Part shown: positions 481-57,900 of the stretch, piece by piece
Layout of the letters: each line of letters begins with the position of its first letter
How positions within the stretch are numbered: position 1 is the stretch's first letter
Assembly: GCA_015179125.1 (NCBI GenBank)
Contig: WHVA01000219.1
Coordinates: 111,162-175,161, forward strand
DNA from: Gautieria morchelliformis
Taxonomy: Eukaryota > Basidiomycota > Agaricomycetes > Gomphales > Gomphaceae
Direction of reading: 5' to 3'
Length of the DNA: 64,000 bases
Program-made: the position numbers and the translations under genes
The notes under the pieces: model-generated
Told to the model about the DNA's origin: nothing
The model's input: the letters and a program-made list of their open reading frames with translations, nothing else
The model's database searches: none

Positions 481-1639
481 ATTCCCTCACCCCTCTTTCG
501 CCAACTCCGCCATAGTCACAAATGGTCGTTTTGGTTTTGTATGACACTTCACAATAACGTTGGGTAGTTATCTAATGCGTTACATCATACCCGCATCTGC
601 CTCGATGGATGTTGTTTGTGCTGTTTGGGGACGTATTGTCAGATGGTGGCTTTTCTAGAAGTACTCTAGGCACGCAAGATCGCCGTCCGCTTTGATCGTC
701 TCGCCTATTATCATCCCGTAGCGGCGCATGCAGGAAGGACCCCTCACAAGTCATATTGTGCCTGACACGGAACTCACCCGTCGATCTTTTTTGCCCGGAC
801 AGAAGAATCGCCTTTCGGCCGCACCCCATCAGGCATTCAGGATAGGCCAAATCTTGCCTTGAGGGTGCCTCGGGCCTCGGACCTCCGGGAGGTTAGATTT
901 TGCGGACCGCCGCATCAGGCTTCCGGTGCGTACCAGGGTTTGTCGCCCGCACCACCACCCTTAGGTCTCATAAGTGGACCACCCTGTATAATTTGCTAGC
1001 TCCGCTCAGACGAACAGAAGATTAATGTAACTAATGTACTTATTTAAAATTAAGAAACCTTCCAACGTCACATACCTAGTATGGGCAAATTATTGACGTG
1101 GTGTGGGTGTGTGGTGATTTGTCAGTGAAAAAATTGTTGGTTATTGCCATTCGTGTAAATGTTACCGAAATATAGCGTCAGAGCTATCTACAGTGTCAAG
1201 GACATGCAACCGTTAGAGTTAGGTACTAGGTGTCCACGGGCTAAGTACCATAATCTCCCAGCTAGCCTAGCAAGGATTTCTTGTGTCGACCGTGCCCTTC
1301 TGGCACACCTCAATACATCGCCCTTATGTTCTACTGTTACCTCGACCCAAAATGGAATGGGGCGTTGTTGAGAATGATTCGATGGTGATGACTCGAGGTA
1401 ACTGAGTAACTCGGATTTCCCCGAGAATATTGTCTGGGCAGTTGCGGCGCCTGCCAGTGACTCAAAGCTGAAGGATAGGGAGGGAGGATACGGGAATCAA
1501 ATCCATGAACAAATTACAGAAAAAAGGAGTGTTCATGCAATTTGTTCTCATCGGATTGGTACTCACGGTGAGATACAGTTGGACCTAATTCTTCCTGGAA
1601 TGTTCATTGCTAACCGAGCCAACCTAATTGAATGTGGCA
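481..1639. other. no gene seen
   Basis: Open frames here are short, overlap on both strands and show no recognisable family. The stretch ends where homology to the inverted copy near 56.99 kb begins (about 1640). Confidence 0.5.
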
Positions 1640-7117: not shown

Positions 7118-10100
7118 GGTTATGGGCCCCGCACTCTGAATGAGGAAGAAAATTATTGTCATGTCAGACTCAGAGACTGAAAAGCATGCGAGAAGTGTTA
7201 AGCTTACCAGGTCGAACTATAGTGTTTGGGCAGTGGCTCTGCAAGGGAAACTCATGATGGTAAATGCATGGCGGATAATACCGAAGACCTCAAAAGGCCG
7301 GTGGATACCATACAGGCAGAAAAGTGGCTACTAAAGCAAGAGGAAGCCGCCGGTATTATCTTGAAATCCTTAACTCCAACGCAATATGTCCATATCGAGG
7401 GGATCATGGATATCCCATCGAGATGTGGAATAGGTTGAGAGCCGCGCACCAATCGCAGGTAGCAAACAGCTGTTTCCACGCTATGCAGAAGCTGCTAAGC
7501 ATACGAAAAGATGATGGGGAATCGCTCACAGACTATATTACCCGAATAAATACAGCCACCAACGATCTCGTTTCACTCGCACCGAGCACACTTACTGTCC
7601 AGAACGTCGTTGATGAGATCGGGATACACGCTGCAATTGCCGGACTCGACCACGTCAAATACGGCGTCTTCACGTTGTGCATCCTCTTGCTCAGTACCCT
7701 CGACCGTGCGGCCATTGCCACAGCCTTCTGGAATGAGGACTTGAAATGCCAGGCCTCCTCAGCATCATCAGCAGCGGCGCTATCAACAATCTCCAAAAAA
7801 AGGGAAAACATCGCAACTTGTGCCGTCTGCAAGAAACGAGGTCATACAGCGGACCAATGCTGGATAGCACATCCGGAACTCAAACCATGCCGGGGCGAAG
7901 AGGTTGGAGGAAGTAATGGTGCAAATCAAGCGAGGAGCGAACCCAGAGTGAAATCACACAGGAATTCGCAGGAAACGCAAGTCTATGGACCCTGTCCCCT
8001 TCCTCCACTGGCAGCGACACTGACCTGCATTGGAACACAGATACAGGGGCCACCAGTCATATGACGCCCCACCGTCATTGGCTGTGAGATTACGAAGCTT
8101 ACCGCGTACCCATTCGACTAGCCACCAATGAGATTGTATATTTGGCGGGAAGGGGGAAAGTCTTATTCATCCCTGAGATTGATGGAAAATTAGCACAGCA
8201 CAAAATGTTATTTTCTCCCAAGTCTTACACGTACCTGCGCTGCAAAATAATCTACTCGCAGTCCTCCATTTAACTACCCAACACGGATTCACAGTTAACA
8301 TCATGAAGGATCGCATCTCATTCTCACAAAATGGACAACTACGCTTCTGTGCTACCGTACAAAATGGGATAGGCTTATTAGCTGGGAATACGATGTTAAA
8401 CTCAGTATGCGCACTCGCCACTTCACTGTCCACCATAGATGGCCCACTACTACACAAGCGACTTGCCCATATTGGTCGAGCGTGCCTGGAGAGACTCTTG
8501 ATGGAGGATATGGCAAATGGAATACACGTAAGCGACAGTGCAGAAATTCCCCAGATCTGTGAACCCTGCATTGCTGCTAAACAACATCATCATCTCTTTC
8601 CAAAAAAGAGCACCAACTGCGCACCCAGGCCACTTGATCTGATTGTCTCCGACGTGCATGGTCCCCTCCCCGTCTGCACACCATCTGGGTATCGATACTG
8701 GATCACCTTCATGGATGACTGCACAAGGTACAGATGCGCCTACCTCCTTAGAACAAAGGACGAAGCATTTGATGCCTATCAATTGTATGAGGCAATGGCA
8801 GAGAATCAGACAAATTCCCGAGTGCGATGATTTCGGGACGATAAGGGGGGCGAGTACATCGGTCATAAATGGATGCTGCACTTCCAGCGTCGAGGCATAA
8901 TCCACGAACATAGAACAAAGGGAACACCACAGCAAAATGGCATTTCAGAAAGAACCAACCGGACACTTATGGAAGGGATAGTCGCTTTACCGCAGCAAGC
9001 TTGCTTACCAGCATCAATGTGGGGAGAGGCTCTAAAATTACTGATCAGAATTATTAATGCCACCCCAACCTCTGCTCTCCCTGACAAGACACCCTACCAA
9101 GCATGGTATAGGTGCAAACCAGACCTAGGAATGCTACACACTTTTGGTTGTGCCGCATACCTCCACATCCAGAGCAAGGAGAGGGATGGGCTACAGCAGT
9201 CCCATAAATGCATCTATCTTGGTTTCGAGGATGGATACAAAGGATGGTGCTGCTTAGATCCCATCACAAAACGCACCATAATATCCCGCAACGTTATCTT
9301 CGACGAATCTGATTTCCCAGGCCTCTCTATCACTGCAAGTACAAGTGAACCAAACGTTCCCCTACCTACTCTCTTCCCCATCGAGGCCGGTGTGGCACTG
9401 AACATGCAGACCCCTCCAGACCCTGTCCCACCTGAAGCCGATCCCGACATTTATGTCCCACCCCCTCCCGAACTGGTCCCAGACCCAGAACCCCTCCCAC
9501 CTGACCCCCCTGCTCCTCCTGACCCACCACGACGATCCAGTCATGCCACGATCTGCCAGGATTATCTCCAACTCCACGACCCATTCCTCCAACCCCGCCC
9601 CACCCCAGATCCCCAGATCATGACAATCCTGGCCCTGAGGGGGGTGCAGCAGCTAGCGCATCAACCATCCAGGCCCTAGAATTCGTCTACAGTTGTTCAA
9701 ACATCTTCAGCAAAAACGAAACCTCACCAGATATTGAATTAGTATTCAATGCAACCATCAAGGATGATCGAGTGCCTAAAACATTTGCGGAAGCAATGCG
9801 ATGCTCGGATGCACCATTGTGGAAAAACTCAACAGATGCAGAAATCCATGCACTACTAGAAAATGGAACATGGGAGCTTGAAAGATTACCACCTGGAAAA
9901 AAAGCCATTGGCTCACGCTGGGTATTCCGAATCAAACTCCATTCGGACGGATCGCTCGACAAGTACAAGAGCCGCCTGGTTGCAAAAGGTTATACTCAGC
10001 GACGGGGTATTGATTACGATGAAGTGTTTGCCCCCACGACATGATGGCCAGCACTACGCGTGATACTAGCTCAAGGGGCACTTCAAGGGGCACATATTGA

Positions 10101-15469: not shown

Positions 15470-18400
15470 CATCTCCCCGGGACTAAAATATTGACCGTCC
15501 CCGGTCAATCGTAAGGCTGGGAAGGCAGACGTCAACTGGAGATGGAGGCATCCGAAGGGATATCGCTATTGTCAACGACTGACGTTACGGGAATGATGGT
15601 GTGCGAATGGGGATAATAGGGGACCAAGCGAAAAGCGGCGAAAGGCAGCTTATGAACAGACCCATCGAGCTCGGTGAGGATATACGCGCCATTACGGTTG
15701 CGTCTGACCACAAGGAGAGGCCCCAGATAACGCGGCTTTGTCTTTCGAAATAGGTCAGCCTCAATCCTCGTGTTACGGACCAGAACAAGTGAGCCAGGCA
15801 CGAAGTTGTAGTCCTTAATGAGATTTGCATTCCCCTTCTCGAACTGAGCAATGGACGCATAGCGGGCTTTCAGGACGCGGTCTTTCACTGCCGCCAAGTC
15901 TTCCTCCCTCTTCTCGAGCTGACGAGCACGGATCGCAATGAGGTTGACATAGGAGAGGGGTTTGTCAAGCTTCAGCACCAGGAAGGTGGCTTCAGCGAGG
16001 TCGAAGGGAAGCATGGGGTCAATACCGTGTGCCATGTAGAAGGGAGAAAGCCCCGTGTCTTTGCGTACCGTAACACGATCCGCCCAAAATACGTGGGGCG
16101 TAACGGAGGGCCAGCAGGTGATATCGCCATCGCAAGCCTTAACGATGGATTCTCTGATGCTCCTGTGACTTCGCTCTACAATCCCATTAGCCTGTTTGTT
16201 ATAGGGAGAGATTCGGATATGAGTAATGTGGTATTTCTTCGCCAGCCAGTCCAGTCCCGCAATGATCGGCGCCCCATTATCCATAACAATCTCCTCCACC
16301 ACACCCCACCTACACAGCAGATCCTCGAACACAAACTTCCCCACTGCCACACCCATTTCCTTCGCCAATATCCTGAACTCGGGATATGAAATCAAAGAAC
16401 ATCGGCCCTGCAAAATATACGACACTCCCGCGACCTTCGGCATATGCATCGTATCAATGTGAACCCTGTGAAAAAGAGGGGCAGGCCATGCGACAACTGG
16501 CGGAATGTGGACGTGCTGTGTAGAGCGTATCTGGCACTCGTGGCAGGTTTTGATAAACCACGCCACATCACGGTCGATGCCCGGCAACCAGAAGCGATCC
16601 GCCAGGGTGCGGCGCATCGAATAGAAGCCCTTATGGCCAAGCTGGTCGTGCGCCTGAAGAATGAAAGAAAGACGGTCGGCAGGAAGAAATATGACGAGTT
16701 GATGGATTTTAGTGGATCTGCGCCGCCAGAGTTGGCCATTGCGCACGAAGAATTTAGTGGCACGTCTAATAAACTTTTTGAGCTGAGTGTCATCAAAACC
16801 AGCGGGCTTCAGGGCAGTAGTCAAAAATTCTTTGATTCGGGGCAATTCCAGATCATCGCGAATGTCTGTGTCCGAGCGAGGGATGGTGAGATCAGGTCTC
16901 GGAGCAGGCAAGGAGCGCATAGTAAACGTGAGGAAAGGGGAGGGGTACACCGGGAGCGGGAGAGATTCTGGCGGCACCTGTTCATCAGCCACCTCTTCAA
17001 GAAAATTACTTGCCGGCATCAACACTTGCCCCTGGTCGGATAACCAACACTTCGTTGGAAGTGCGGTAGCGTTGACCCGGCCTTCTCCACTGCCTGTGCC
17101 CCTACCCAAGAATTTACCCAAACCCCCAATTCCAAAACCTCATCTACCCAATCATCCTGCGGCTCCTCCTCGTCCTCCGGCACTGGCCGCCGTCAAGAAA
17201 GACCGTCTGGCCCCGCATGATCCTTGCCTGGCACGTGCACAAGGTCAAAGTCAAAGAGCAGAATCCCGGTGATCCATCGGTTTATGGCATTATTCGGTTG
17301 TATGTCCGGATTGTTCAGCATTCCCTTGATAGATTTTGCGTCGACTTCCAGGCTGAACGTTGGCAGGCCCACAAGATGAATTCGAAGAGCCTTGAGGGTC
17401 CGAAAAACGCCATGCAGTTCCAGCTTTGACTGCGAATATCTAGCCTCGTGTTCCGTCCATGAAATGGAGCCGTACCTCGACGGTTTCCTCCGGCCCCGTT
17501 CATCGAGCTGATAGACAATCCACCCCACCACGATAAATGAAGAGTCCACAGCGAGGATGACTAGACGCTTGCTTAGATAATCGATAGGTGCCAACGCAGG
17601 TGCAGCCACAACACGCTGCTTCAAACAATCCATCGCCTCCTGCTGCTCTTCCCCCCACACAAACACAACATCCTTTCGCGTCAACTGCACCAATGGCCGT
17701 GCAATTTCCGCAAATTTCTCAATGAAGATACGCACAACCCCACAGGTGCCCAAAAATCCCTGTACTTCCGTCAGATCATGACAGACTGGCCAGTTCTTGA
17801 TCTTCGACACTCGAGCCTGGTCCGGGACCCGTCCCTTGTAATTGCAAGTGTGGCCCACTATGTTCACCTCCGGGACCCCTAGGATGAGCTTGTGGGCCGA
17901 AAAGGTGCTGCCTGCATGCTTCATGCGGTGGAAAATCCTGTTGACATCGGTGAAGTGCTCCCAGGCAAACCGTCGTATGTTTGGATTCTCAGCAAGTGTT
18001 TCGTAAGTACTGCCTGGCAGCTCATAGCGTGTTTTCGGACCTAGAACAGGGACGTCATCTAGGAACGGTGGTGCCCTACCAAGTTCGTCTTGCAAGATAA
18101 AAGTGACGTGTCCTTGAAAAATAGATACTGAGTTGGACCATCCCATTGGGAGGGCCATGAGGCGATGAGGACCGAGGGGCGTCTGGAATGTGGTGAGGTC
18201 TCGAGATTCCGGAGCTATGGGCGTGTGGTCATATCCCACATAAATATTGCCAAGCGAGTAGATAGCCCGGCCTGCGCAGTGCTCCGCATACGGCTCCACG
18301 TTCGGCGGAAGACCCGCGTCCTTTATTGTCACGGCATTCAATGGCTGTAGATCATGAACAATACGGAACTTCCCATTTTTCTTCGGCACACAGAAGCAGC

Positions 18401-18495
18401 ACGACCTATAGGAGGAGCCAGATGGTTCGTACGTCCCACTCGAAATCTTGTCCTTTATAAGCTGAATGACTTCGTCCCGCAACCAGAGGGATGCA
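15093..18495 (-). mobile_element. Ty3/gypsy element 1, 5'-truncated
   Basis: Order on the minus strand: reverse transcriptase and RNase H (about 18490-17190), integrase with zinc-binding HHCC-like start and core (about 16800-15700), C-terminal integrase tail (about 15530), polypurine tract, LTR. The integrase frame (15532-17121) is long and continuous. Protease, gag and the 5' LTR are absent; the 5' side stops against an MFS-gene fragment. Broken, with about one to two breaks besides the truncation. The RT differs clearly from that of element 2, so this is a separate family. Confidence 0.85.
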
Positions 18496-18728
18496 CAGCG
18501 CAGTGCTCAGCCACGAGAACCAAGTGACATATAGGTAGTCGCCCAGCTTGCTTATTATAATACCGGTGAAAGCGGACACGAAAGCAGCGCCGAGCAAGAA
18601 TGGGAGCATCCTGCCATATGCGTGAGTGGGCATGTGTGCGCGGAGCGGTCTTGGGGGCCATACCTGATTCCAGAGTCAGTGGCCGACCCACCGAGGACTT
18701 GGAAGTATAAGGGCAGATAGTATGTGCC
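18495..18728 (-). pseudogene. MFS transporter (DHA2-like) gene fragment with an intron
   Basis: On the minus strand the reading YYLPLYFQV..GSATDSGIR (18728-18664) is followed by a canonical GT-AG intron (18611-18663, 53 bp). The frame then resumes as MLPFLLGAAFVSAFTGIII SKLGDY to about 18500. This hydrophobic pattern with conserved Gly and a loop SKLGDY matches one helix-loop-helix of DHA2 drug-efflux transporters. The intron shows it is genomic host DNA rather than a retrocopy. It is wedged between two gypsy fossils, and no other part of the transporter is visible in the window. Confidence 0.65.
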
Positions 18729-21700
18729 TGGTAGAGCGAGGGATTGAAATGCCAGCGAGCAGATTCGGCGAGGGGCACCGGGGTGTGTCCTATAGAACTC
18801 ACGGAGTTTGTCTGGAGTGGAAACATCTTGCTCCGGGACCCACGAATTCTCCTCATACCCATACCCTTCCCATTTCACGAGGAATTGGAGTCGTCCTCGC
18901 ACAAACCGGCTGTCCAGGATCTGTTCCACCACATAGTGCTCTTCCCCATCTACAATTTCTGGCAGAGGTGGCGGACGAGCCTTCCGACCTGGAATTGGGT
19001 CCTCAAGCATAGGGAGTAACTTCACCACGTTGAAGACGGGGTGGAGGCGGGACATGGACATTGGAAGTTGGAGGCGGTATGCATTCCATCCAACCCTCCG
19101 CATCACTGTGAAGGGCCCAAGGTAGCGGTGGGCAAGCTTCTGCAAAGGGCATGTGGTGCGGATGTCACTTGCATCTAGATACACCTTGTCTCCAACTTGG
19201 TACTCCGGGGCAGGAACCCGGCGTTGGTTGTAGTACCTTGCCATGTCATCCTTGGCCTTCGCAAGGGCCGACTTGGCTTCCGAAAGGGTGGAGTCCATGT
19301 GGTCTCGGAACTCATTGACCGTCTCGAGTCAGGACTCTGCCTGGCATGGTTCGAAGCCCATCCGTGGGTGTCGTCCGGAGTCGAGCATGAAGGGAGTCTG
19401 TTGTGTGGCGGAATGTACATGGTTGTTGTATTGGAATTCTGCCAGTGGAAGTAACTCATCCCAGTCATCCTGCCTCTCATTGACAAAGAGGCGGAGATAT
19501 TGCTCCAACTCCTGATTGACCCATTCTGTCTGTCTGTCACCCTGTGGATGGTACGCTGTGGTGGTAGCCAGCTTTATGCCGAGCAGGCGGTAGAGCTCCC
19601 GAGTCAGTTCCACGACAAACTGCGGACCTCGGTCGGAAACAACTTGCTTCGGGAGCCCATGCAACTTCCAGACATGTGCAAGGAACAGGCGGGCCGCTCC
19701 GAGGGCTGTGATTGTCGTGTGCGTCGGAATGAAGTGGGACACCTTGCTTACCGAATCCACGACGTTCATGATCACGTCGTAGCCTTGAGACTCTGGGAGT
19801 TCAATGATGAAGTCGACACTGATGGTGTCCCAGCGGGATTCGGGAATCAGGAGCGGAACAAGTTCTCCAACAGGCGGATGTCGTTGCGCTTTGGTTCGGA
19901 GACAAAGGTCACATGTCTTCACGTACTGTCCAATGTAGCGGGACATCTGAGGCCACCAGTAATTCCAAGCCACTAACTCCAGCGCCTTCCACCTGCCAGC
20001 ATGCCCAGCGACCCGTGTGTCATGGTGCTGGGACACGATGCGGCGGCGGAGGTCCGCCCCACCTGGAACATAGACCTTGCCTCTGAAGTGGAGCAGTCCA
20101 TCATGTTCCAACCATTCTGCTGCCCGTACAGATGGTGAGTGCCCTTTCCGAAGTTCCTCCACCGCCTTCACCACCGGCTCCTCCTTCTCTCCATTCCGGT
20201 ACTGCCTCCGGATGTCCCGGAGCATTTCCGCTTCCGCCCCAACTGCAGTCACTCCCTCTAGGGCGCGGATTGCAAAGAGACTAGGGCAGAGCAGTGTTAT
20301 ATCCGCGTTGTCTCCACTTCCGCTTCCATGATCCGCACGGCGGGATAGGGCATCAGGCTTGCCCATGGTGTGGCCAGGGCGGTGGTGGAGCATGAAGTCG
20401 AACCGGGATAGGTGTAGGGACCACCGTGCTTGTCGTCAGTTCAACTTTTTAGACATGCGGAAGTACTCGAGGTTCTTGTGGTCTGTCCAGATCTCAAATG
20501 GGCATAGAGCACCCTCCAGGAAGTGTCGCCACTCCTCCAGCGCTCGGATGATTGCCAGCATCTCCTTGTCGTGGATCTCATAGTTCCACTCGACCGGACT
20601 AAGGCTTTTAGAGAAAGGCAATCGGATGCCACCCCCCATCTTCTGATGACTGTTGCGACAAGACCGCTCCGGTAGCTGTGTCGGAAGAATCCGCCTCGAC
20701 TCGATAAGGGTGAGAGTCATCGGGGAAGATCAGGACCAGGGCACAAGTGATCAGCTCCTTGAGTTTGTCAAAGGAGGCCTGTTCTGGCTCTCCCCACCGC
20801 CATCCAACCTCCTTCTTGGTGACGTCGAAGAGGGCACGAGCGTGGCAGGAGAAGTCCTTGATGAACCACCGGTTGAAATTGACAAACCCAATGAAGGACT
20901 GGACCTCTTTCTTGTTCCGTGGCACAGGCCAATCCGATACACCGGAAACTTTGACTGGGTCCATTTCCACCTTTCCTTCCGACACAATCACCCCAAGATA
21001 CTCTATCCGCGTCCGCTCAAATTCGCACTTTTCCGGCTTGAGACACAGGTTGTATTCCCGGAGTTGTTCCAGCACTCTCCGCACGACTTCCTGATGTTCT
21101 GACATTGTTTTTGTGAAGATGAGGATGTCATCGAGGTAGACGCAGACAACCCCTTCTGCTATCATGTCATGGAAAATGTCATTCATCATCATCTGGAATG
21201 TGGCGGGACTGTTGGTGAGGCCAAAGAACATGACCTGTGGCTCAAAGAGTCCTTGGTTGGTGCGGAATGCGGCCTTCCACTCATCTCCCTCCCGGATCCG
21301 AACATTATTGAAGCCCCAGCGGACATCCAGCTTAGTGAAGTACCTTGCCCCACGGAGTTGTGTGATTAGTTCGGAAATGAGTGGAATGGGGTACCGGTTC
21401 TTGATCGTGATCACATTCAAGGCCCGGTAATCCTGCACAAGTCTGAGCAAGCTGTCCTTCTTCTTTATGAAGAACACCGGAGATGCCATGGGTGACTTGG
21501 AGGGGCGGATCCTCCCTGTACGGAGGTTTTCCGCAAGGAATGCATCGAGCTCTACCTGCTCCTTGGGTGACAGTGGGTAGACCTTGCAGTTGGTGGGCTT
21601 TGATACAGGCTCCAACTTGATGACAGCTTCCGTGGAGGCAGGGCATCAAATGACTCCTTGGCAAAGACGTCCTCGAACTCCCGCAGGTACTCCAGAATTT

Positions 21701-22640
21701 CTGCCTCCACTCTATCATGCTTCTTGGAGGCTTCAGCAAGACGTTGCGAAATATTTCCGGTGGCGCAGATGTGTTCCGATTCCGGTGGAAGGTTTACGTA
21801 CAGCAAGCGCTCCCCTTCCGCCAGTGTGTCTTCCGGGCCGAGTCGGATGACGTCGGAATCGGAATCGGAATCGGAAGTGGGACCCGGTTCAAATTCCGCT
21901 TCCGAATCTTCTTCTGCAAGCAGTGGATGGGGGCCAGAACGACATGTCTGTATGAGCCGTTCAGTCTTCCGCTGCTCCTGGCGCTCCTTCCGCACTTCCA
22001 ACCGGCACATGTGACACTTGGCTGGGCATTGACTCGTCAGTACCTCCTGAGTCTGCCAATTGATCTCCGGGTTGTGCTCCTGAAGCCAGGTAAATCCGAG
22101 GATGACGTCTTGCTTCCCCAGGCTGGTGACTGCAAAGGAAGTATGTTCTGAGTGTCCATCGAAGCGGAGAATTGTGTCTACTATCTCTGTGATGGACCCT
22201 GCCTCATTGGGGCTTCCATCCACATTGAACACTGGGATTGCACGCTGCAACTTCCGCGTGGTCAGTCGGTTCCGTTCCACATATTCCCGGTCTATAAACT
22301 GACCAGTGGCCCCACAATCAACAAGGGCGGGTCCAGATTTGACTTCCGCTGTATCTGTCATCTGGATCTCCACCTTAATGACTAGTGACTTGGGGCCAGG
22401 GGTGGCAGCAACAACATAGCGCTTCGGGAGGCGTCTCTCCAAGGGCGGATGCAGGATGGATGGGGTGTCGGATTTGGTTTTTGTGTGACTTTATCCGGTG
22501 GGTCTGTACGAAGTGAGGGGTGTGGGGGCTTTTCATTCTCTACTTCAAGACAGGCAAACCGGTTATGTACAGGCAGCAGGGGCACACATCTCACCTGCTG
22601 CGCGTCACAAAATCCGACGCATCTTCCACTTCCGATGCAC
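18729..22640 (-). mobile_element. Ty3/gypsy element 2 (chromovirus), broken, no LTRs
   Basis: Order on the minus strand: gag C-terminal remnant (about 22600-22450), aspartic protease (about 22350, ALVDCGATG), reverse transcriptase (about 21600-20750, VYLDDILIF), RNase H (about 20700-20440), integrase (about 20250-19330) and chromodomain (about 18940-18800, FLVKWEGYGYEENSWVP). About three to four breaks. Both LTRs are missing: the 3' side is replaced by the MFS fragment and the 5' side by the foldback at 22649. A close relative of its tail occurs at 33341-34389. Confidence 0.88.
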
Positions 22641-42717: not shown

Positions 42718-45700
42718 TTACTGACTAGCCTGACTGGCAAATGGCGCTGCAATGAGCTCCCCGATGTCTGCATTCCACACACGGATCGTCTGGTCAAAAG
42801 AACCGGAGACAATCCGCTTGCCGTCGTGCGAGAACCCCACCGACCTGACCCAGTCGGTGTGGCCTTCGAATGGTGCTGAAATCGCGTCCCCGGTGTCTGC
42901 ATTCCACACACGGATCGTCTTGTCAAAAGACCCGGAGACGATCCGCCTGCCGTCGTGCGAGAACGCCACAGACGTGACCCAGTCGGTGTGGCCTTCGAAT
43001 GGTGCTGAAATCGCCTCCCCGGTGTCTGCATTCCACACACGGATCGTCTTGTCATAAGACCCGGAGACGATCCGCCTGCCGTCGTGCGAGAACGCCACAG
43101 ACGTGACGCAGTCGGTGTGGCCTTCGAATGGTGCTGAAATCGCCGCCCCGGTGTCTGCATTCCACATACGGATCGTGTCATCATAAGACCCGGAGACGAT
43201 CCGCTTGCCGTCGTGCGAGAACGCCACAGACGTGACGCAGTCAGTGTGGCCTTCGAATGGTGCTGAAATGGCCTCCCCGGTGTCTGCATTCCACATACGG
43301 ATTGTGTCGTCATCAGACCCAGAGACGATGCGCTTGCCATCATGCGAGAACGCGACCGACGTGACCATGTCGGTGTGGCCTTCGAATGGTGCTGAAATCA
43401 CCTCCCCGGTGTCTGCATTCCACACACGGATCGTGGCGTCATCAGACCCGGAGACGACGCGCTTGCCATCATGCGAGAACGCGACCGATGTGACCACGTC
43501 GATGTGGCCTTCGAATGGTGCTGAAATCGCCTCCCCGGTGGCTGCATTCCACACACGGATCGTCTTGTCATAAGACCCAGAGACGATCCGCTTGCAGTCA
43601 TACGAGAACCCCACCGACGTGACCATGTCGGTGTGGCCCTCGAATGGTGCTGAGATCGCCTCCCCGGTGTCTGCATTCCACACACGGATCGTCTTGTCAC
43701 CAGACCCGGAGAGGATGCGCCTGCCGTCGTGCGAGAACGCCACCGACGTGACCATGTGGGTGTGGCCTTCGAATGGTGCTGAAATCGCCTCCCCGGTGTC
43801 TGCATTCCACACACGGATTGTCTTGTCATAAGACCCGGAGACGATCCGCTTGCAGTCGTGCGAGAACGCCACCGACGTGACCATGTCGGTGTGGCCCTCG
43901 AATGGTGCTGAAATCGCCTCCCCGGTGTCTGCATTCCACACACGGATCGTCTTGTCAAAAGACCCGGAGACGATCCGCTTGCCGTCGTGCGAGAACCCCA
44001 CCGACCTGACCATGTCGGTGTGGCCCTCGAATGGTGCTGAAATCGCCTCCCCGGTGTCTGCATTCCACACACGGATCGTCTTGTCATAAGATCCGGAGAC
44101 GATCCGCTTGCAGTCGTGCGAGAACCCCACCGACGTGACGATGTGGGTGTGGCCTTCGAATGGTGCTGAAATCGCCTCCCCGGTGTCTGCATTCCACACA
44201 CGGATCGTCTTGTCATAAGACCCGGAGACGATCCGCTTGCCGTCGTGTGAGAACCCCACCGACGTGACGATGTGGGTGTGGCCATCGAATGGTGCTGAAA
44301 TCGCCTCCCCGGTGTCTCCATTCCACACACGGACCGTCTTGTCATAAGACCCGGAGACAATGCGCCTGCCGTCGTGCGAGAACGCCACCGACGTGACCCA
44401 GCCGATGTGGCCTTCGAATGGTGCTGAAATCGCCTCCCCGGTGTCTGCATTCCACACGCGGATCGTGTTGTCATCAGACCCAGAGACGATGCGCTTGCCG
44501 TCGTGCGAGAATGCTACCGATGAGACATCGAGGTTGTGGCCTACCAAGACGTTTTCAATAGCTGGCCACACCTTTAGTTTCCCTTTCTCTATGCGGAGTA
44601 GTCTTGGAAAGTCTGGGAGGTAGGTCTGTGACACTATGGAACTTTCAGGTGCAAGTGGGAGTGCCGACACATAGAGATGAGGTGTGCTCTCCAAGATAAC
44701 GCTCCAGAAAGTAGCCACAAACTTGCGGGTATCCCGTATGAATGCTGTAGTGTCGTTATCCTGAAGTTCATCAGACTCATGTCGGAGCTCATAACAGCTT
44801 GGGCACTCACCTGACTCCAGTCCAATATTGACAAGAGCGCTGTTGAAGCACCGAGTACCTGCTTGATCAGACTCAAAACTTCCAGCCAGTAGAGTAGCTT
44901 AGTCTCGAAGAACTCCTTGACCTTTGCATTTATGCCCGGCGTAAATGTGGTGCCGCGAACATGGTCCGCCCAAAAACGGCAAGAGTAGGAAAGCTGTAAG
45001 GATATATACCTCTTGGTCCGGGTCTCCAAGTCCACAACATCGTCGTTGCGCAGATGCGAAGTTTCAAGCTGACAAATGTTGAAACAAAGCTCATCCTTCA
45101 TCACGCGCAAGCATGAGAGCGCAAGGCCGACATGGTGTAAAGATGTATCGATGTAGTATGCTTTACTCGAGTTGCGATCTGTTAAGAAGTCACGAAAAGA
45201 CGTGTGCAGCAGACTGATTGTGCCAGATTCTTGAGAAGGAAGGCTAAGCAGAGCACCCATAGGTCCAATTATATGTTGAACCTCGGTACCCGAGTTGCCT
45301 TCCTTGTATAATTTCTGCAGGGCAGAAATCGAGAGTGGTTCTCTGGCAGTCAGGATGCAGCCCATCACCAAGCAAAAGCGATCCTTGACATCGTCCGTCA
45401 ATTCATCGTCATCACCGAATATCTGCTTGAGGATACCGACATACAGGTTATCCATCCCACTAAGGTTCTTGACCAAAAGTTTCTGCAGTTGCTGAACGGG
45501 ATCCCGACCACTCTTCCCATCTCCTTTGACAAATCGACAAGCCGTGAACGCCCATTGAAAGTGACCCTCAGATTTATCGACTAATAATTGACACCAGTAA
45601 TGGTTGGGCCATTTGCGTTCGAGGTCCGTAATGTTACCTAGTTGAGCTTCCACAAAGCGTGCGAGGTCATCGGCAGGGTTCGGGTCAATATCCTTCAGGG

Positions 45701-47752
45701 ACATGGAAAGCACGTGCTTCTTCCCAAGTAGGGCATCCAGGATGTCTTTTTCGGCACGGGAGGTGATGAGAACGCGGAAGTTAGGCGGGAGTTCTGCAGC
45801 TTCGTTGCCAAGGACAGACAAGAGACCCTGGCGAGAATCCCGGTCTCCACTCTCATCCAATGCATCAATAACGATAACCGTTGGTCCGACGGACGTTAGC
45901 CCATGGGAGGCGCCTAGAATGAACTTCTGGAACTGCTGACGAGGTATGCGTGTGGTCCGAAGGGCTGTCTGGCCTTTGACCACTTCCACCAACGATGCTT
46001 TGCGTTGTGGGTCCAGATCTGCCAGATCTCGAGCAATAGTGCTAAAGATATTCTCGGGGGATCGCTCTGCCAGACGAGCGCGGTCAAAACAGTATGACGA
46101 TCCGAGACGTTTGAGCCTATTAAATCGTCGAGCGATCTCATGGGCAATCGCAGATTTGCCGGCACCTGCAACATCGTTCAAGAAAAATATCCGGGGGGTG
46201 TCGTCGCTATCCTGGTTGACCCAATCGCAGATCTCCTCAATAACCTTCTTGCGAGTACCCGGTAAACAGCCTTTTTCAGGATCGCATCCAGCTGACCCTG
46301 CATAGGGCATCTCGCTCAGCAGAACTACTTCAGCTGGTTGCAAGGGGTCTTAGGCTCGGGAAAGGCACAAAGTCAGAAAACTCACACAGGTCGCCGATGG
46401 TATCCAGAACACGTAGTACAGAGATTTCGGTATGAATGATGGCGTGTTCCTGTAACGCCGACCTGAGATTCTTGAACGTTTCCCGGTATTGGTCGACCTT
46501 GCTGTCGTCCGACCATAGATTTTTCACGCCTCTTTTCCCTGAACAAAGATCGTCAGCTATGTCCACCTGACAGGGATTCAACATACAGAAATCCCTTTCT
46601 TTTGCGTAGGCGCGAATAAAGTAGCTGCACTCTACCGTCTGATTCGTCAAGGATATGATAATTGGCCTTTGCGATTCAATTTTCTTCAACGGCTCTGCCA
46701 AGTGGACGAACGCATATGTGTCTCCAATGAGTTCCGCCAGCGCATTGATGCTATTATCCCGGTCCCTCTGAGCAATGATCGCCTGGGCCAGACGTCGGAT
46801 ATGTCAACTCAGCTGGTGCATGGGATAGATCTACCTTTGGCACACTAGACAGGATAGACCATGCCATTTTTGCGTAAGGATGGACCTAGAATTAAGTAAA
46901 CCGTGTACATGAGATGATCTGGGAGACCGCCGGCGTTTGAACCATACCTGGGAGATCCCATCCACGATCTCGGTAAACAGCTTGATCCTGTCCAGAAGTG
47001 GATCCCAAGCCGTCATTGTCGGGATGACCGTATTATTGGTGGTGGAAATGACGCCGTCAACAACATTCCCTGCTTCAATAATTCCGGACGGCGCTGGGTT
47101 CATACTATCGACCACTTTCACGTCGCTGACTGCTTCGCTCAACTGGGCCTTCCGCGCCTCGTCGGACGTCGCGAAAGACGTGATGGTGAACTCTAGGACA
47201 GTCTGAACATCATGCATGTTCCCTGCCTTATCCGGCTTTCGTAGTTTCGGAGCAACGGCCCGTGTCCAATGTGTACACGTCATTCCGTCGATGAGCGAAA
47301 AGGACCGACCTCCAGTTGCTCCTTCTGCAAGCAGAAACTCAATTCTTTCCTTCGTACCGCCTATGAAATCATCAGGTCGGATGGTATGATGCCCATATAC
47401 TTCAATTTCCAACACAGAAGACCGAGTCAAGTTGAAGCTGTGGACAGATTTAAGATCACATTGAGACGCTAACGCTGGAATTCACGCACAAATAGAATAG
47501 CTCGTTCCACGAGGCAGTATTGCCTCTCGCAGAAAACGTGGTCTTCTGGGGGGCGTTCTTATCGACGACGAGTTTCACGAAGAACTGACTAGGACGCTTG
47601 CGGAACAGTGAGACATTGGGAAGGTGCTCGCATTTCAAGCCTGTTATCGATCGGCAAGAGTCAGTATACAATAGATAGCGCAACGAAAGAGTCTTTCCAG
47701 CAACTTTGATTCCTGCAGGAATACTTCGGGGTGGAGTGAACAGTTGGCTCAC
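42718..47752 (-). CDS. C2-NACHT-WD40 STAND receptor (HET-E type)
   Basis: Intracellular NLR-like sensor. On the minus strand, exons are 47752(or 47712)-47490, 47437-46948, 46885-46835, 46782-46386, 46333-44811 and 44760-42718. All introns are 50-62 bp GT-AG and all joins keep frame (4767 nt, TAA at 42718). The C2 domain comes first (KCEHLPN..., SVLEIEVYGHH), then the VHPYAKMAWSILSSVPK linker motif encoded by its own 51-nt exon. The NACHT NTPase follows with Walker A NDVAGAGKSAIA and Walker B VIVIDALDE, then a helical part, then 14 WD40 repeats. Nucleotide-driven oligomerisation with the WD40 array as ligand reader is the family model; the ligand is unknown. The start is unresolved: the C2 exon has no in-frame ATG. 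A candidate first exon is 48054-47889 (ATG, GTGAGT donor, matching phase), giving about 1630 aa. Confidence 0.9.
42745..44560 (-). repeat. array of 14 WD40 repeats, 129-bp unit
   Basis: Each unit encodes 43 residues with the consensus GHTDxVTSVAFSHDGKRIVS, then GS.DxTIRVWNADTGEAISAPFE. The units are almost identical at DNA level. Differences cluster at a few sites: the two residues after GHT (DM, HI, DW, DC, HM), A/G in SVAF/SVGF, G/C in HDG/HDC, the residue pair before TIR (YDK, FDK, DDN, DDA, DDD, YDD, FDQ). Fourteen blades suffice for two seven-bladed propellers. Such arrays also create long antisense open frames, which are artefacts. Confidence 0.95.
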
Positions 47753-47888
47753 TAGAGAAGCGATCGTGGACTTACGGTGCTGTCACAGTGCCCTCAGCGT
47801 TGTTCATTGTGCGCAGTGTTCGAGGTGGGTGGTAGACGGAAAAAGACGACGACTCAGAGCTCCGTACTTCGGAACTGTCAGCACTCAC

Positions 47889-48240
47889 GCAGCTTCTCAC
47901 GTATTCCCGGCGTCAATGTGAAGCGCCCGTCGATTTGGCTCGGCCGTCTTGCTAAGTACAGCCTGGTCCGTGTCTCAGAGGCAACACGGCGTGAGTGAGC
48001 TCCGTGCACTGGGAAAATTTCCTTGATCCGTTGCCGCGCACACAACATGTGCATCAACGTTCTACATATGAATAACACGTTCACACCTGCAGTTTTTTCG
48101 ACTTGTTCCCATTCCCAAAGCAGCGCTACCAGAACTCCAAATGCGACACTTGTCCATCCAATCCATCTTCCCTCCCAATATTTCACCAGTACTCCCTCAG
48201 CGGCTAGCGACCGTATAGTCCCCAGGGACTCCTTCTCCAA
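47889..48240 (-). other. open frame upstream of the receptor, candidate first exon
   Basis: A minus-strand frame opens after a stop near 48244 and contains ATGs at 48054 and 48048. It ends in a GTGAGT donor at 47888 with phase 1, the phase needed by acceptors CTCTAG (47756) and CTGCAG (47713) in front of the C2 exon. The 55-residue product is basic (ARQRIKE, RRVASETRTRLYLARR). The implied intron, 132-176 bp, is longer than the others, so the call is tentative. Confidence 0.35.
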
Positions 48241-48879: not shown

Positions 48880-49540
48880 CTGCTCCTGCCACGTGTGCTC
48901 ATTGTGTTACTGCTGACATGATCAAGTACCGCCCACAGATCGGGTCCCGAGTTCACCCACGTGCCCTGTGGCAGCAGCCACTGCTTCATCCACACGTGAT
49001 CCACCGGTAAATAGTTGAGTTACCGTTGGGGTTGGGGTTGGGATTGGGGCGAGTTACCGTGCGCACTCTTATACCGTAATCAACGCTCAGACGCTCGCGC
49101 ATCTACAACTTGCCTGCGTGGACCAAAGTTCCATTTCCACCATCCACCCTACGTGAGCAGATCTCCACCCGTTTCTGATGGCATGAGTGACTATTCCCTT
49201 TCCCATTCCATCAACTTCCGCGTCGCTCAGCCAAATTACCTAATCGCCCCCCGCATACGCTGCTGCAGCACGCGAATTAACGATGGCACCTTGCGTATGC
49301 GGATGGGAGGGCCTGGTAATCCCGTGGGCCTAAGGTGAAAGGCCCTCATGCTCCATTCTCCGATCCTGTACCTTCCACATCGAAGACCACTGCGGGGGGC
49401 AGGCTGAACAACTGCAAGGGCATTGTAGCGTAAGTCCACGATCACTTCTCTAGTAACCCAACCTTGACTCGCCACCCTGAAGCATTCCTGCGGCAATAAG
49501 GGCAATCCAAGTTGCAGAACAGCCCCTTTTGTTTCGCTGT
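48880..49540 (+). repeat. duplicated receptor 5' flank, copy 2
   Basis: Plus-strand partner of 41690-42400. It leads into the decayed receptor paralogue, so it is probably that gene's native 5' flank. It also has a short GGGGTTGGGGTTGG run at about 49025-49045. Confidence 0.75.
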
Positions 49541-50700
49541 CTATTGTACTGACCCTTGGCGATCGACAATAGACGTCAAATGCAACCACCTTCCCAATGG
49601 CGGACAGTTCGGCAAGCGCTACGCGAAACTCTTTGTCGATAAGGATGTCCAGAAGACGGCGGTAGCTGCGAGAGGCAATGCTGTCTCGTGGAAGGAGACA
49701 TTCTATTTGTGCGTTCAATTCTAGTGGTATTGTGTTTACGCCATTTTTACCGCATGGCCAGCAAGAACTTTCATCAGTCTTCCGTATTGGAGATTGAAGT
49801 CTATGGGCATCATACATTTTCAGCTGACGACAGGACTAAGGCAAGAACTGAGTTGCTGCTTGCTGAAGGAGCAACAGGCGGTCTGTCCTTTCACTCATCA
49901 ACTGAATGCACGCGTATTCATCGAACGCAGCAACCATTCCCCGCAACCTGAATAAATCCGATACGTCAGGGAAGATGTACCAAGTTCGAACCATCCTAGA
50001 ACTCACAATTGCGTCTTTCGTGACGCCCAATGACACGCTGGAAGACCAGCTGAACGAGGCAGTCAACGAAGCGAACGACGGTGATAATATGAACCCCGCA
50101 CCGTCCTTAATCATTGGTGCAGGGAATGTGGTCAACGCCGCCACTTCGACCACCAATACTATCAATCCAATAACGGCGGCTTGGGATCCCCTCCTGGACA
50201 CGATCAGGCGGTTTACCGAGATTGTGGATGGAATATCAGAGGTTTGGTTCAACATTCGGTCGTCTCTCAGGTCATCTCATGTACACGGGTTGCTTGATTA
50301 TAGGTTCATCCTTATGCAAGAATGGCATGGTCCATCCTGTCTATTGCACACAAGGTACATCTATGATATACACCAAACGGATACATATATCTGACGTCTG
50401 GGGTTGACTACATCCAGCCGATTATTTCTCAGAAGGACCGAGACGATAACATCAATGGGCTAGTGAAAATCATTGGAGACACCTATTTCTTCGGGGTTGG
50501 GGTTAGGTCAAGGAGTTCTTCGAGCCCAAGCTACTCTATTGGCTTGAAGTGTTGAGTTTGATCAAGAAGATACCCGATGCATCAGCGGCGCTCTCGTCAA
50601 TAATGGACTGGAGTCAAGTGTGTGTGCCCAACTTGTTGTGAGTTCCGGCGTAAGTTTAGAGAACTTCAGGATAATGACATTGTCGGTACCTGAAAGGTCG
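49400..50700 (+). pseudogene. decayed C2-NACHT receptor paralogue
   Basis: A plus-strand relative of the 42.7-47.8 kb gene. The C2 domain is recognisable (KCNHLPNGGQFGKRYAKLFVDKD, with a GT-AG intron at about 49710-49760, then SSVLEIEVYGHHTFSADD), as is the region before NACHT (TEIVDGISE, 50215). Reading frame is lost near 49945. From about 50495 the sequence jumps straight to the segment that precedes the WD40 array in the intact gene (LLYWLEVLSLIKK...DWSQV, about 50540-50620). The whole NACHT domain is therefore deleted, and no WD40 repeats follow. Confidence 0.85.
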
Positions 50701-54414: not shown

Positions 54415-56985
54415 CAAAGTATAAGGAACATCGCGAATCGATACCGGTAATGAGAAAGCGATTCGTCATGATATGAGGACTCCATCAAGGCAGGCGTGAC
54501 TCTGAGCTTCTCACCTCAGCGCTGTTATTGTGAGCGGCAACTGAGCGCGGCCAGGCTGTCCCTTGACCCTAAATAAAAAGTCATTCGCATTGCATGACAC
54601 TTGTCGAACGAACGCACATGGGATTCATAACCATAGCCGCACTTCTGATTATCTCGGGATTTCCTGGGGCCGGGGAGAACTCAAAGTTTTCAAGAAACTC
54701 AATGAGCATTGTCTGCATCTCAAGCAATCTGTAAAACGTTGACAACGAAGAACCTTCAAAAAATAACAATCATACGCAAAGCGCCATCTGGAACGCGCCA
54801 TTATTTCACGGAATGGTACACAATCCAGAGCACGCACCCTATGCAATTACGTATTCCGCTGCTGAACGTCGCGCTGCATGAGTAGAGTTAGCCGCAATGC
54901 GTGCACGGAATAGGTACCTCACAGGTTAGCTATCATACCAAGCCCTGTCTGCTGCTCGGCATGGACACCTTCCAGGAAACGCTCAGGCCTCCACACGTCG
55001 GCGTCATCACCCCAGACTGATGGCAGCCTTATGTGCTATTATTATTATGACACTGCATATGCAGACATTGAACTCGCCTGTTATAAGCCCCGATGGAAAT
55101 CGATACCCGTTGTCCCTTACTCACAGGGATGCTGGTAACGGCCTCACCCGTCTTCGTTGTCTGTGGGGCCGAAAGCGGAATGATATCCTCGCGACCCGCC
55201 ACACGCGACAATAATGTTGTAATCGGGTGATACCTCAGTGTTTCCTTTTGCATCGGGGATTAGTATTAGCTCAAATGACATGTAAACCATCCACCTTTAT
55301 GACAGAATGCAGACATTGCATAGAGTCCAGGTCAGCGATGGTAAGTTCCCCGTTGCCCCTTTGTGCTGCCTGGGCGCGAGTGGTCTTAATCTCCTCCCGT
55401 ACACGACTCTGAAACCCGGGGTGCCGTGAGAGTTCGTAGAACGCCCAACTTAGCGTCGACGCAGTAGTTTCCTGGCCTGCAATCATCAGTGTTCTAATCA
55501 AATCGTCAGGGAATGCGTTCTCTGGCATTGCGATGGAAACCAACTTCAATTGTGCTATTACCTCGGTCCTGCTCAACTTCGATTTCGGATCTTCTGACAG
55601 ATTGGCCCTGACTAGGACTTGTTCTGATTCGATACCATTAACAAGGGCACTTGACACGTACTGAGAATGCTCATAACATCCTTTCCGCATTCCTTGCCGC
55701 TCGAATATGACTCTGTTTGCGCCTGCACGATACCTTTGGCTATGCGGTGCGTAACCTTTGTATACCTTCGTAACCTTCTGAGCTGCTTGGTCGGTAGCAG
55801 TCGTATGGCCGGCACCGCCCAAAGAGGTATATAACCCCAGAGCGCTTCAAATGCGATCGCGAAGTCGGAGCGTTTGAAGAACGAGTCGGCACTAAACCAC
55901 AGAAATTAATGGAGAAACCTCCAAGGATAGGCTCTGTTTACAAGATATTTTTATAGACGATCGAGAGCTCGTCTTCATGTTCATCTATGGCTCCAAAATC
56001 GTGATCGAAAGCGGCTGTAATGAATCAGCAAAACTCAGTACCGTTGGACCGGAAAGGAATAACCTCGTCCGATGGCGTCTAAAGTAGTGCGAGCTAACCA
56101 CGACGGGATGTCGATCACTGTTGATAGGCCGCCGCTTTGTGCCACAGCGTCCTTCCATTTAGCGACAGTCTAGAGACATACGATGAGTAGAGATTGCATC
56201 TAGAGATCCCTTCGTGAACCTTTTCCGAGGTATTATGGAATATGGGTAGAAAGAGCCGCAAGGAACTGTAAGAGAAAGCAGGATTCATGATCTTTCTGTG
56301 CCTGGCGTGTTGAGCACCTACGTAAACGATAGGTATAAGCCGGTTGGAGCAAACAGCAAGTAGAAGGAGAGGACCCTGAGCAAATAGCATGCCTGGGCCC
56401 AAAACCAGCTTTGCTGTAGCGATTGATTGCGGGTTTCTAGGAAAGTTGTACCCGGCGGTATTAAGGATGTATTGAATGGCCTGGCATCATGCTCAGGAAG
56501 ACTGAAATGATGGAATATGGGGTTCTGGTACCTTTAGGTCCGCTGTAAAAAGTACATCTACCTGCACTCGCCACTATCAGGTAGAAATGTCTATTGGCAG
56601 AAACACAAGGACACACCCCAAACGCCCCCTTGATCTTCATAGCAGTCCCATACTTCTTGGTCCATGCAAATTCGGCCTCTGCAGCGTTGTCGGGTCGAAG
56701 TAGCTCAGGGAGGTTTCCTGTTTATATAAGTAAGTGAAAGTTCCATTTGCTGTAGATATATCTTGACATCACCGACGAGCCAAGGGCCAGGGGCTGGCCC
56801 AGGAAGATGTGAGATCGAGCGACTGAGGTATCGGCGAATAATGGCACGCAACAGGACACTAAATAGAAACAGTGGCAGGCCGAAGGAGAGAATCATGTCG
56901 CTGTAGGTGTGCTGTCCTGAGTGCGGTATTCCCCCTCAACAGTGTCGCGGTACACTTGGACTTATACTTATCTGCTTGACGGAAC
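54415..56985 (-). repeat. long inverted duplication, arm B (P450 gene plus flanks)
   Basis: Reverse-complement partner of 1640-4225; see there. Both ends of homology lie outside the gene. Confidence 0.9.
54581..56896 (-). CDS. cytochrome P450, copy B, 14 exons, about 551 aa
   Basis: Inverted paralogue of the 1717-4049 gene with the same exon plan. The ATG at 56896 opens MILSFGLPLFLF; the final exon ends at TGA 54581. I checked every exon against copy A: lengths match and splice sites are present. Exon 6 uses the shared acceptor CTCTAG before ACTGTCGC, and exon 11 uses an AAG acceptor one base from that of copy A. Intron 4 starts GT here but GC in copy A; intron 10 starts GC in both. Motifs kept: AGQETTAS, ETLR, WRPERF, FSSGIRNCIG. 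The substrate-recognition region after ETLRYHP differs (ITTLLSR against IGPTLAR), so specificity may have diverged. It looks functional. Confidence 0.85.
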
Positions 56986-57900
56986 CGACGTGATTAAGTA
57001 GGGTCGGCCATCTTGTCCGTAGTACGTTTGAAACTCAGTCAGATCCCGACCAGACATATTTGGACGTCCGAAACCACCACCTAGGTCGTGTGTCGTGTTG
57101 AGTCTATTCCGCGACACCTTCCCTCGAACAGGATCCAATCCTTAGTTTCAGCTATGAGCCATGTGGTACCTGGGACAAGCTTCACGCCTCGGCTTCAACA
57201 TATAGTCACACGCGCTCCGTCGACAAAGACGACCACGGCTTCACTGTAGAAGTCCATGAAAAAAAATATGAAAAAAAAAAAAAAATAGTAAAGATATGTA
57301 CTCGTCGAGCAGAATATAAATCTAGGGCTCAGATTGGCACTCGTGCTCGTCGTCAAGGACAACGACGAAGACGGGAGTAAGGTGAGGTCATAGACTAATC
57401 GAGGGATGACGAAAGCCTTGGAGCAATGGCTTCAAGCTTTCGTGTAGAGAGATCGCAAATTGAATAGTTTCGGCTGATGTCATCGCTGGGAAACGAAGCT
57501 GCGCATCCGGTTCCATGGTTGACTAAGCTTCGGTATTACTAACAGAACAGATACTTAAACTTTCTTGAATTTTTGTTAAGACAGTGCTCCAAGAGGCAGG
57601 AACGAGTCAATGACAGTATGTGGGTGCCTTTTGTATTTCGACCAAACTACCGGATTTGATTAGCTGCTCGGTCGAGCATCCCCGAGAAAACATGATGTAT
57701 CTCACTGGTATACTATATTCTTTTATCTGCGTGCAGCAACGCAACGTAGCCGTCTGTTTCTTTGGTCTCGGAGTCGTCGTCGGCGCACAGGATGCGTAAG
57801 GCACGTTCCTGCCTGGTGGCCACTCTGTTCTAAGTGCCGATTTGGGGCCGGTACTCAATTGTGGCTTGTAAATCACACAAATCAACGACCTGCACTAGTC
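56986..57900. other. no gene seen
   Basis: Intergenic sequence with a poly-A run at about 57270-57290 and short frames without recognisable content. Confidence 0.5.

Follow-up and report, generated by a model that had tools for sequence, protein, structure and literature searches.

The question raised by this locus of Gautieria morchelliformis is whether a gene that joins a C2 domain, a NACHT-type NTPase and a highly repetitive WD40 array is a receptor for non-self, and whether its sensor evolves as in the HET-D/HET-E incompatibility receptors. The window, that is, the whole stretch of 64,000 nucleotides analysed (C248:111162-175161; contig WHVA01000219.1 of assembly GCA_015179125.1), belongs to a genome of 122 Mb in 1,113 contigs. 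The gene lies on the minus strand at 47807-42718, where eight exons join into an uninterrupted frame of 1573 aa between an ATG at 47807 and a stop at 42718. Its seven introns are all GT-AG and 48-62 bp long. The gene probably encodes an intracellular fungal NOD-like receptor (NLR), with a two-propeller WD40 sensor of non-self or modified self whose specificity is changed by unit turnover and selection.

The encoded protein contains a C2 domain (Pfam, E=2e-9; 38.0 bits against a cut-off of 22), followed by a linker exceeding 200 residues, an NTPase (nucleoside triphosphatase) of the NACHT type, a winged helix, and 14 WD40 units in a single exon. C2 is the putative N-terminal effector domain. 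The best Pfam model for the NTPase, NPHP3_N, matches above its cut-off (residues 418-578, E=2.6e-22), and the NACHT model itself scores 19.7 bits on this protein, short of the 26.7 required. HTH_TANC1 covers the winged-helix stretch (residues 706-798, E=1.8e-6), and exon 7 holds what we take to be the Walker A (GAGKS) and Walker B (VIVIDALDE) motifs. A Pfam search of the protein gave no HET domain match at E<=1. The features of a fungal NLR with highly conserved WD40 repeats, namely an NTPase, conserved C-terminal repeats and an N-terminal C2, are all present, and the C2-NACHT-WD40 architecture proposed in a preliminary description of the window is borne out by the C2 and NPHP3_N matches and the 14 WD40 stretches.

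Tandem Repeats Finder (TRF) detected a 129-bp unit in 13.7 copies at 42757-44520. Pairwise nucleotide identity among the 14 units averages 89.1% (76.7-97.7%), and the DHSW tetrad (H2, S20, D24, W30) is complete in 14 of 14. The preliminary description had spoken of 14 near-identical repeats that vary at the same part of each unit. The number and the unit length of 43 aa stand, "near-identical" is slightly strong for the mean identity found, and the placing of the variation is as described, with positions 5, 23, 25, 4, 3 and 7 the most variable and V6 and D24 invariant. Adjacent units are closer to one another than random pairs (10.92 differences at lag 1 versus 14.06; p<0.0001, 5,000 permutations), also when the six variable codons identified below are masked (p=0.0024). 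A propeller-sized duplication of units 1-7 into units 8-14 was rejected, as there is no signal at lag 7 (15.14 observed, 14.06 expected).

Selection on the unit codons was analysed in 43 arrays of the family, using the 595 of 618 units that were stop-free and distinct within their gene; a smaller set held 538 of 556 units, likewise stop-free and distinct. When the genes were bootstrapped 500 times, codons 4, 5, 7, 23, 25 and 37 showed a higher proportion of nonsynonymous (pN) than of synonymous (pS) differences in at least 99% of the replicates, so that the comparison by position across repeats, which the preliminary description had put forward as a check, came out in favour of diversification at a few sites. 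The four codons that flank conserved positions 6 and 24, referred to here as HET-type, gave a pN/pS of 1.50 (95% interval 1.34-1.72), compared with 0.31 (0.28-0.35) for the remaining 37 codons jointly. Those 37, outside the six, are together under purifying selection; codon 28 alone is about neutral. At the four codons, 363 distinct combinations occur among the 595 units. All four rank within the top six of 43 codons, for which the chance is 1.2e-4, a value that is not fully independent because the offset was fixed by the conserved neighbours. Top-face contact positions derived from WD40 complexes are designated R1-2, R1 and D-1 in PMC3419727. By our own assignment, from the fingerprint V6-x7-S8-V9 and from D24 of the DHSW tetrad, positions 5, 7 and 23 would correspond to these three.

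Seven units of the window gene, folded alone and without an alignment using AlphaFold2 (AF2), yielded a closed seven-bladed propeller with a predicted local distance difference test (pLDDT) score of 93.2 and a predicted template modelling (pTM) score of 0.90. In superpositions, the model fits a designed propeller with seven blades to 0.7 Å (286 residues) and one of the 2YMU propellers to 0.8 Å (287 residues). Since seven units alone are predicted to close in this way, the 14 units fit two propellers.

Units look exchanged across the family. At four-fold degenerate (4-fold) sites, the difference between genes was 0.269 for NACHT and 0.151 for the units, and 0.133 for units within genes; units were less diverged than NACHT in 446 of 465 gene pairs, with a weak correlation between the two remaining (Spearman 0.22). 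This comparison used the inner units of 31 genes, without the unit at either end of an array and without the six variable codons. The same 31 genes served for the ratio of nonsynonymous to synonymous substitution (dN/dS), the set excluding L002-L006 (sequence retrieved too short), L030 and L031 (5' part not homologous) and L042-L046. The lower divergence of the units fits their exchange across the family. Memory of unit position between genes is lost: in 19 arrays of 14 units, differences per 111 nt were 10.44 at the same position between genes and 10.45 at any position, with 9.48 within a gene. The window gene's closest NACHT relative, L039 (95% aa identity), has only 4 units, and the start of its exon 8, compared by eye, resembles another lineage, which points to a sensor that has likely been swapped. 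The HET-D/HET-E-like mode of evolution suggested in the preliminary description, by repeat shuffling and selection at a few residues, agrees with pN>pS at the same four codons, with members of 4-29 units and with units that look exchanged.

To estimate the size of the family, the genome was searched with two 29-base motifs. The NACHT-exon motif occurs 181 times at up to 2 mismatches (reversed control, 0) and the WD40-unit motif 1,878 times (control, 0); both figures are lower bounds and count motif copies, with no implication for the completeness or expression of those copies. A search with the NACHT exon gave 407 candidates, of which 85 were scored, all 85 at >=73% identity and 77 without an internal stop. 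The median dN/dS of the NACHT exon among the 31 genes is 0.37. Of the 41 arrays preceded by the start of exon 8, 35 keep their frame open through the final unit, the six broken ones being L010, L017, L026, L034, L042 and L043. Nine of the 43 arrays are flagged, namely these six, L012, in which the frame is open as far as the sequence was retrieved, and L030 and L031, which have no exon 8 start. The last two (C759:1-5943 and C759:56581-64140) carry 26 and 22 like WD40 units with no detectable homology in the 5' part, and the L030 array has three odd spacings of 186 bp.

Detected unit numbers range from 4 to 29 across the family, and 14 is the commonest (20 of 43 arrays), in a sample biased by the choice of most arrays for similarity to a 14-unit query. 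L042-L046 were instead chosen by NACHT among loci outside the similarity list, which favours short arrays, and L001, L007 and L008 were dropped as duplicates of L027, L016 and L009. All unit numbers are detections at a score threshold; the array of L006, with 13, has one gap of nearly two units. A fixed number of 14 was rejected, as counts vary: among the 16 best NACHT matches, the 13 counted have 14, 4, 14, 12, 5, 14, 14, 9, 6, 5, 7, 14 and 20 units, so that 14 occurs in 5 of 13 (range 4-20), the 9 and the 5 of L042 coming from arrays with frame breaks. A 2014 survey gives 274 as its largest total NLR count in one species (PMC4986451), and numerous species with hundreds of NLR genes are reported in PMC9815663; a large NLR family as such is therefore not new. 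No paper on this particular C2-NACHT-WD40 family was found in searches of open-licence papers.

The gene may encode an immune receptor that is directed at transposons or at foreign organisms such as viruses, bacteria and other fungi, and not at conspecifics, with the large, fast-turning repertoire serving as an anticipatory panel. We regard this as evenly poised. It is favoured by the 181 NACHT and 1,878 unit motif copies, by the 363 four-codon combinations in 595 units, and by a NACHT under constraint next to a sensor that is turning over; against it, the whole case is drawn from the sequence of the repertoire.

The pair L040 and L041 allows array turnover to be measured directly, the rest of the gene being almost unchanged. 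Their NACHT exons are without difference, the 3,451 bp upstream contain 2 mismatches, and identity over 344 bp downstream is 99.7%. The arrays comprise 14 and 12 units in different combinations and order, with a 4-fold difference of 0.058 between units and an exact duplication of three units in L041. In this youngest pair the usual order is reversed, the units being more diverged than NACHT. Contigs C450 and C683 share a flank match of 1,201 bp at a rounded 100% (2149 bits, versus 2167 for the probe against itself). Of the 3,550 candidates for the non-repetitive end of a C683 probe, 40 were scored, and none of these was a match in C450; another C683 probe is a high-copy element. The two loci may be alleles or a recent duplicate. 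Elsewhere on C683, L047 (C683:29800-30700) is found at 40 or more genome places at 99-100% identity, itself included (40 scored of 763 candidates), and is therefore probably a recently active element.

This pair is also one ground for regarding the window gene as an allorecognition (somatic incompatibility) gene proper, alleles of which would sense, once hyphae have fused, variant forms of a conserved host protein, just as HET-D and HET-E recognise HET-C. The arrays differ between almost identical flanks, as those of alleles would, and the codons diversified are those of HET-D/E. We nevertheless consider it unlikely: at least 181 motif copies are too many for most of them to be het loci in their own right, C2 takes the place of HET, and L040 and L041 are possible alleles only, the C683 probe end being unmatched in C450 among the 40 candidates scored.

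The gene model was examined against aligned relatives. The ATG at 47807 is present in 13 of 13, and the length of exon 1 modulo three is the same in 12 of them, the exception being L022. The preliminary description had begun the gene at 48054. This start was rejected: of the 27 relatives whose sequence reaches far enough upstream, 20 align continuously only from about 47940 or later, and in the other seven, 48054-47885 aligns wholly or partly with indels that are not multiples of three. Its claim of a splice model fully in frame holds from 47807, with eight exons, seven GT-AG introns and an open frame of 1573 aa.

The following mechanism is the probable explanation of these findings. The 14 WD40 units would form two seven-bladed propellers, the top faces of which would bind a non-self or modified-self ligand. 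Binding would free the NACHT NTPase to oligomerise, and C2 and the linker would then act at the membrane, leading to cell death or another defence response. Specificity would shift through duplication, loss and exchange of units, both inside single genes and among the many genes of the family, and through selection that diversifies the six ligand-facing codons. Ligand binding, oligomerisation, membrane action and cell death are the steps that we infer.

Several points weigh against this reading, beginning with the gene model. Exon 2, read in the window's frame, contains a stop in 11 of 13 relatives. A 1-bp deletion in it is common to the window gene, the frame of which is open there, and its close relatives; for the relatives that do not have the deletion, each GT-AG intron tried by eye leaves the frame off by one. 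As judged from these alignments, exon 2 is the least certain exon, and it is in its 5' exons that the model is weak. Downstream, an intron at about 47309-47260 seems to be spliced out in the relatives, its terminal AG being kept in 13 of 13 (by eye), and in L039 as well. The window gene has lost this splice acceptor through a 2-bp deletion, and would either read through the former intron (about 17 residues) or use another acceptor. "Intact", as the preliminary description called the gene, is accurate for the frame, which is open throughout, and too strong in view of exon 2 and the lost acceptor.

Other such points concern the protein and the methods. The linker gave no Pfam model above cut-off and no Goodbye match, at the position that a Goodbye-like domain is described to occupy in many Agaricomycete NLRs (PMC9815663); DUF7708 matched weakly, below threshold, in 3 of 4 linkers examined, with a best E=0.0011 in one relative. 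An AF2 model of all 14 units (19 sequences) showed 9+5 blades and not 7+7, and was set aside as a structure for this split and its low confidence (pTM 0.52); we read the split as a register ambiguity among like repeats. Counting pN/pS disregards codon and mutation bias, exchange between repeats weakens any site test, and the low 4-fold divergence of the units could also stem from codon constraint. Repeat arrays are described as prone to mis-assembly (PMC12222747), and the evidence as a whole consists of one genome and predicted structures.

The lost acceptor and uncertain 5' frame could also mean that the window copy is decaying or silent and merely donates WD40 units to other genes. The acceptor is kept by L039 and the aligned relatives, and broken relatives exist, including a head-to-head relic in the window. 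Such decay is, in our judgement, improbable. The frame is open over 1573 aa despite the deletions, the DHSW tetrad is complete in all 14 units, and the NACHT exon, compared with that of L039 as the closest relative, gives a pN of 0.025, a pS of 0.059 and a dN/dS of 0.41, so constraint has acted. That the variable sites and array differences are assembly error or neutral repeat slippage is hardly credible, although short-read assemblies of such arrays are described as unreliable (PMC12222747), since the nonsynonymous excess is confined to six codons with the other 37 jointly purifying, the four HET-type codons lie within the top six of 43 at the chance given above, and the frame stays open through the final unit in 35 of the 41 arrays that follow an exon 8 start.

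Beyond the single receptor, we tentatively suggest, as a possibility that is itself open to considerable doubt, a combinatorial system spanning the family. At least 181 genes of the C2-NACHT-WD40 type would share at least 1,878 units that are exchanged, diversified at six contact codons and selected for 14 units (two closed propellers), with arrays rewritten faster than the flanking genes diverge. If this is true, the system would be a candidate for the molecular basis of somatic incompatibility or innate immunity in basidiomycetes. The mechanism of basidiomycete somatic incompatibility was called completely unknown in 2021 (PMC8229728), and the family, given a basidiomycete host, offers a concrete, testable candidate set. 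Its specialist interest lies in the scale of the family and in the pair with almost unchanged flanks.

The features of the gene and the relic are listed in Table 1. The relic, about 1.6 kb from the start of the window gene, consists of C2 and linker, after which the homology skips to the last part of the NACHT exon and the beginning of exon 8; the NACHT core and the array are missing. An inverted repeat of 2.6 kb (89.6% identity) has one arm near each end of the window, at 1638-4224 and 54415-56992. Pieces of long terminal repeat (LTR) retrotransposons lie at 8831-9676 (+), 15535-18506 (-) and 21555-22490 (-), with Pfam matches to SH3_retrovirus, Integrase_H2C2, RT_RNaseH and RVP_2 (4 of 7 scanned frames matched).

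Table 1. Coordinates, in window positions, of the C2-NACHT-WD40 gene and the neighbouring relic.
Feature	Position	Strand	Remarks
Exon 1, conserved start codon (MNNAEGTVTAP)	47776..47807	-	ATG conserved among relatives; donor GTAAGT
Exon 2, first half of C2, 5' part uncertain	47490..47723	-	in frame here
C2 domain, residues 38-118, intron-interrupted	47350..47644 (converted by hand)	-	Pfam C2 E=2e-9
Exon 3, second half of C2 and start of linker; holds former intron ~47309-47260, acceptor lost here	46948..47437	-	
Exon 4 (VHPYAKMAWSILSSVPK), linker	46835..46885	-	conserved among relatives
Exon 5, linker; position of Goodbye-like domain in Agaricomycete NLRs	46587..46782	-	
Exon 6, linker	46386..46538	-	
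Exon 7, NACHT-type NTPase and winged-helix part	44811..46333	-	
Exon 8, link and WD40 sensor, stop at 42718	42718..44760	-	
14 WD40 units, each exactly 43 aa (129 bp)	42736..44541	-	hypervariable 4, 5, 7, 23, 25 (+37 family-wide)
Head-to-head relic, same NLR family	49405..50690	+	tblastn and blastn against window

Of the known systems, the HET-D/HET-E (HNWD) family of Podospora anserina is among the closest. It is described as 10 genes with 69 units, with selection at codons 7, 9, 25 and 27 (PMC1805685). Shared with it are a NACHT domain with a highly conserved WD40 array, a variable repeat number, and exchange within and between loci (PMC1805685, PMC12222747). The four diversified codons are the same when placed by the conserved positions next to them, which are 6 and 24 in the present family and 8 and 26 in HET-D/E, and the units evolve in concert, judged here within one genome. 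The two differ in the N-terminal part (HET there, C2 and a linker here), in the length of the unit (42 aa there, 43 aa here) and in number (10 genes there, at least 181 motif copies here), and two further codons, 4 and 37, show a clear pN>pS here. A reactive HET-E allele has been modelled as 11 conserved and 3 cryptic blades, making 14 in two propellers (PMC12222747), whereas the window gene has 14 canonical units. HET-D/HET-E have an incompatibility phenotype, whereas the window gene is known from its sequence. The window gene is not a member of the HET-D/HET-E family, because the HET domain is absent; to judge by its array, it works like a HET-E-type sensor outside that family.

By its architecture, which is not new, the gene belongs with the C2-bearing NLRs already described for basidiomycetes and Agaricomycetes. 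It shares an N-terminal C2 and NACHT with the C2 and "C2 Goodbye-like" NLRs (PMC4986451, PMC9815663), and WD40 is described as the prevailing repeat of basidiomycete NLRs in the same two papers. The Goodbye-like domain of the C2 Goodbye-like type is not detected here by Pfam. The architecture and the introns of about 50 bp point to an Agaricomycete as the most likely host.

Among propeller proteins, 2YMU (B2J0I0_NOSP7, a highly repetitive WD40 protein; NOSP7 presumably denotes Nostoc) also has 14 repeats, one propeller superposing at the 0.8 Å given above. It is bacterial, with 40-43% identity. Apaf-1, among both the structural and the sequence matches, likewise combines an NTPase with WD40 propellers, but has CARD and NB-ARC instead of C2 and NACHT, and divergent repeats. 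The 14 repeats of 2YMU are described as two WD40 domains (PMC5587647). The design of the window gene is a known one, and it is the size and liveliness of its family that suit it for testing how mushroom-type fungi recognise strangers. That the codons diversified are those of HET-D/E under a different N-terminal domain argues that the WD40 top face may be a general, fast-evolving sensor of fungal NLRs.

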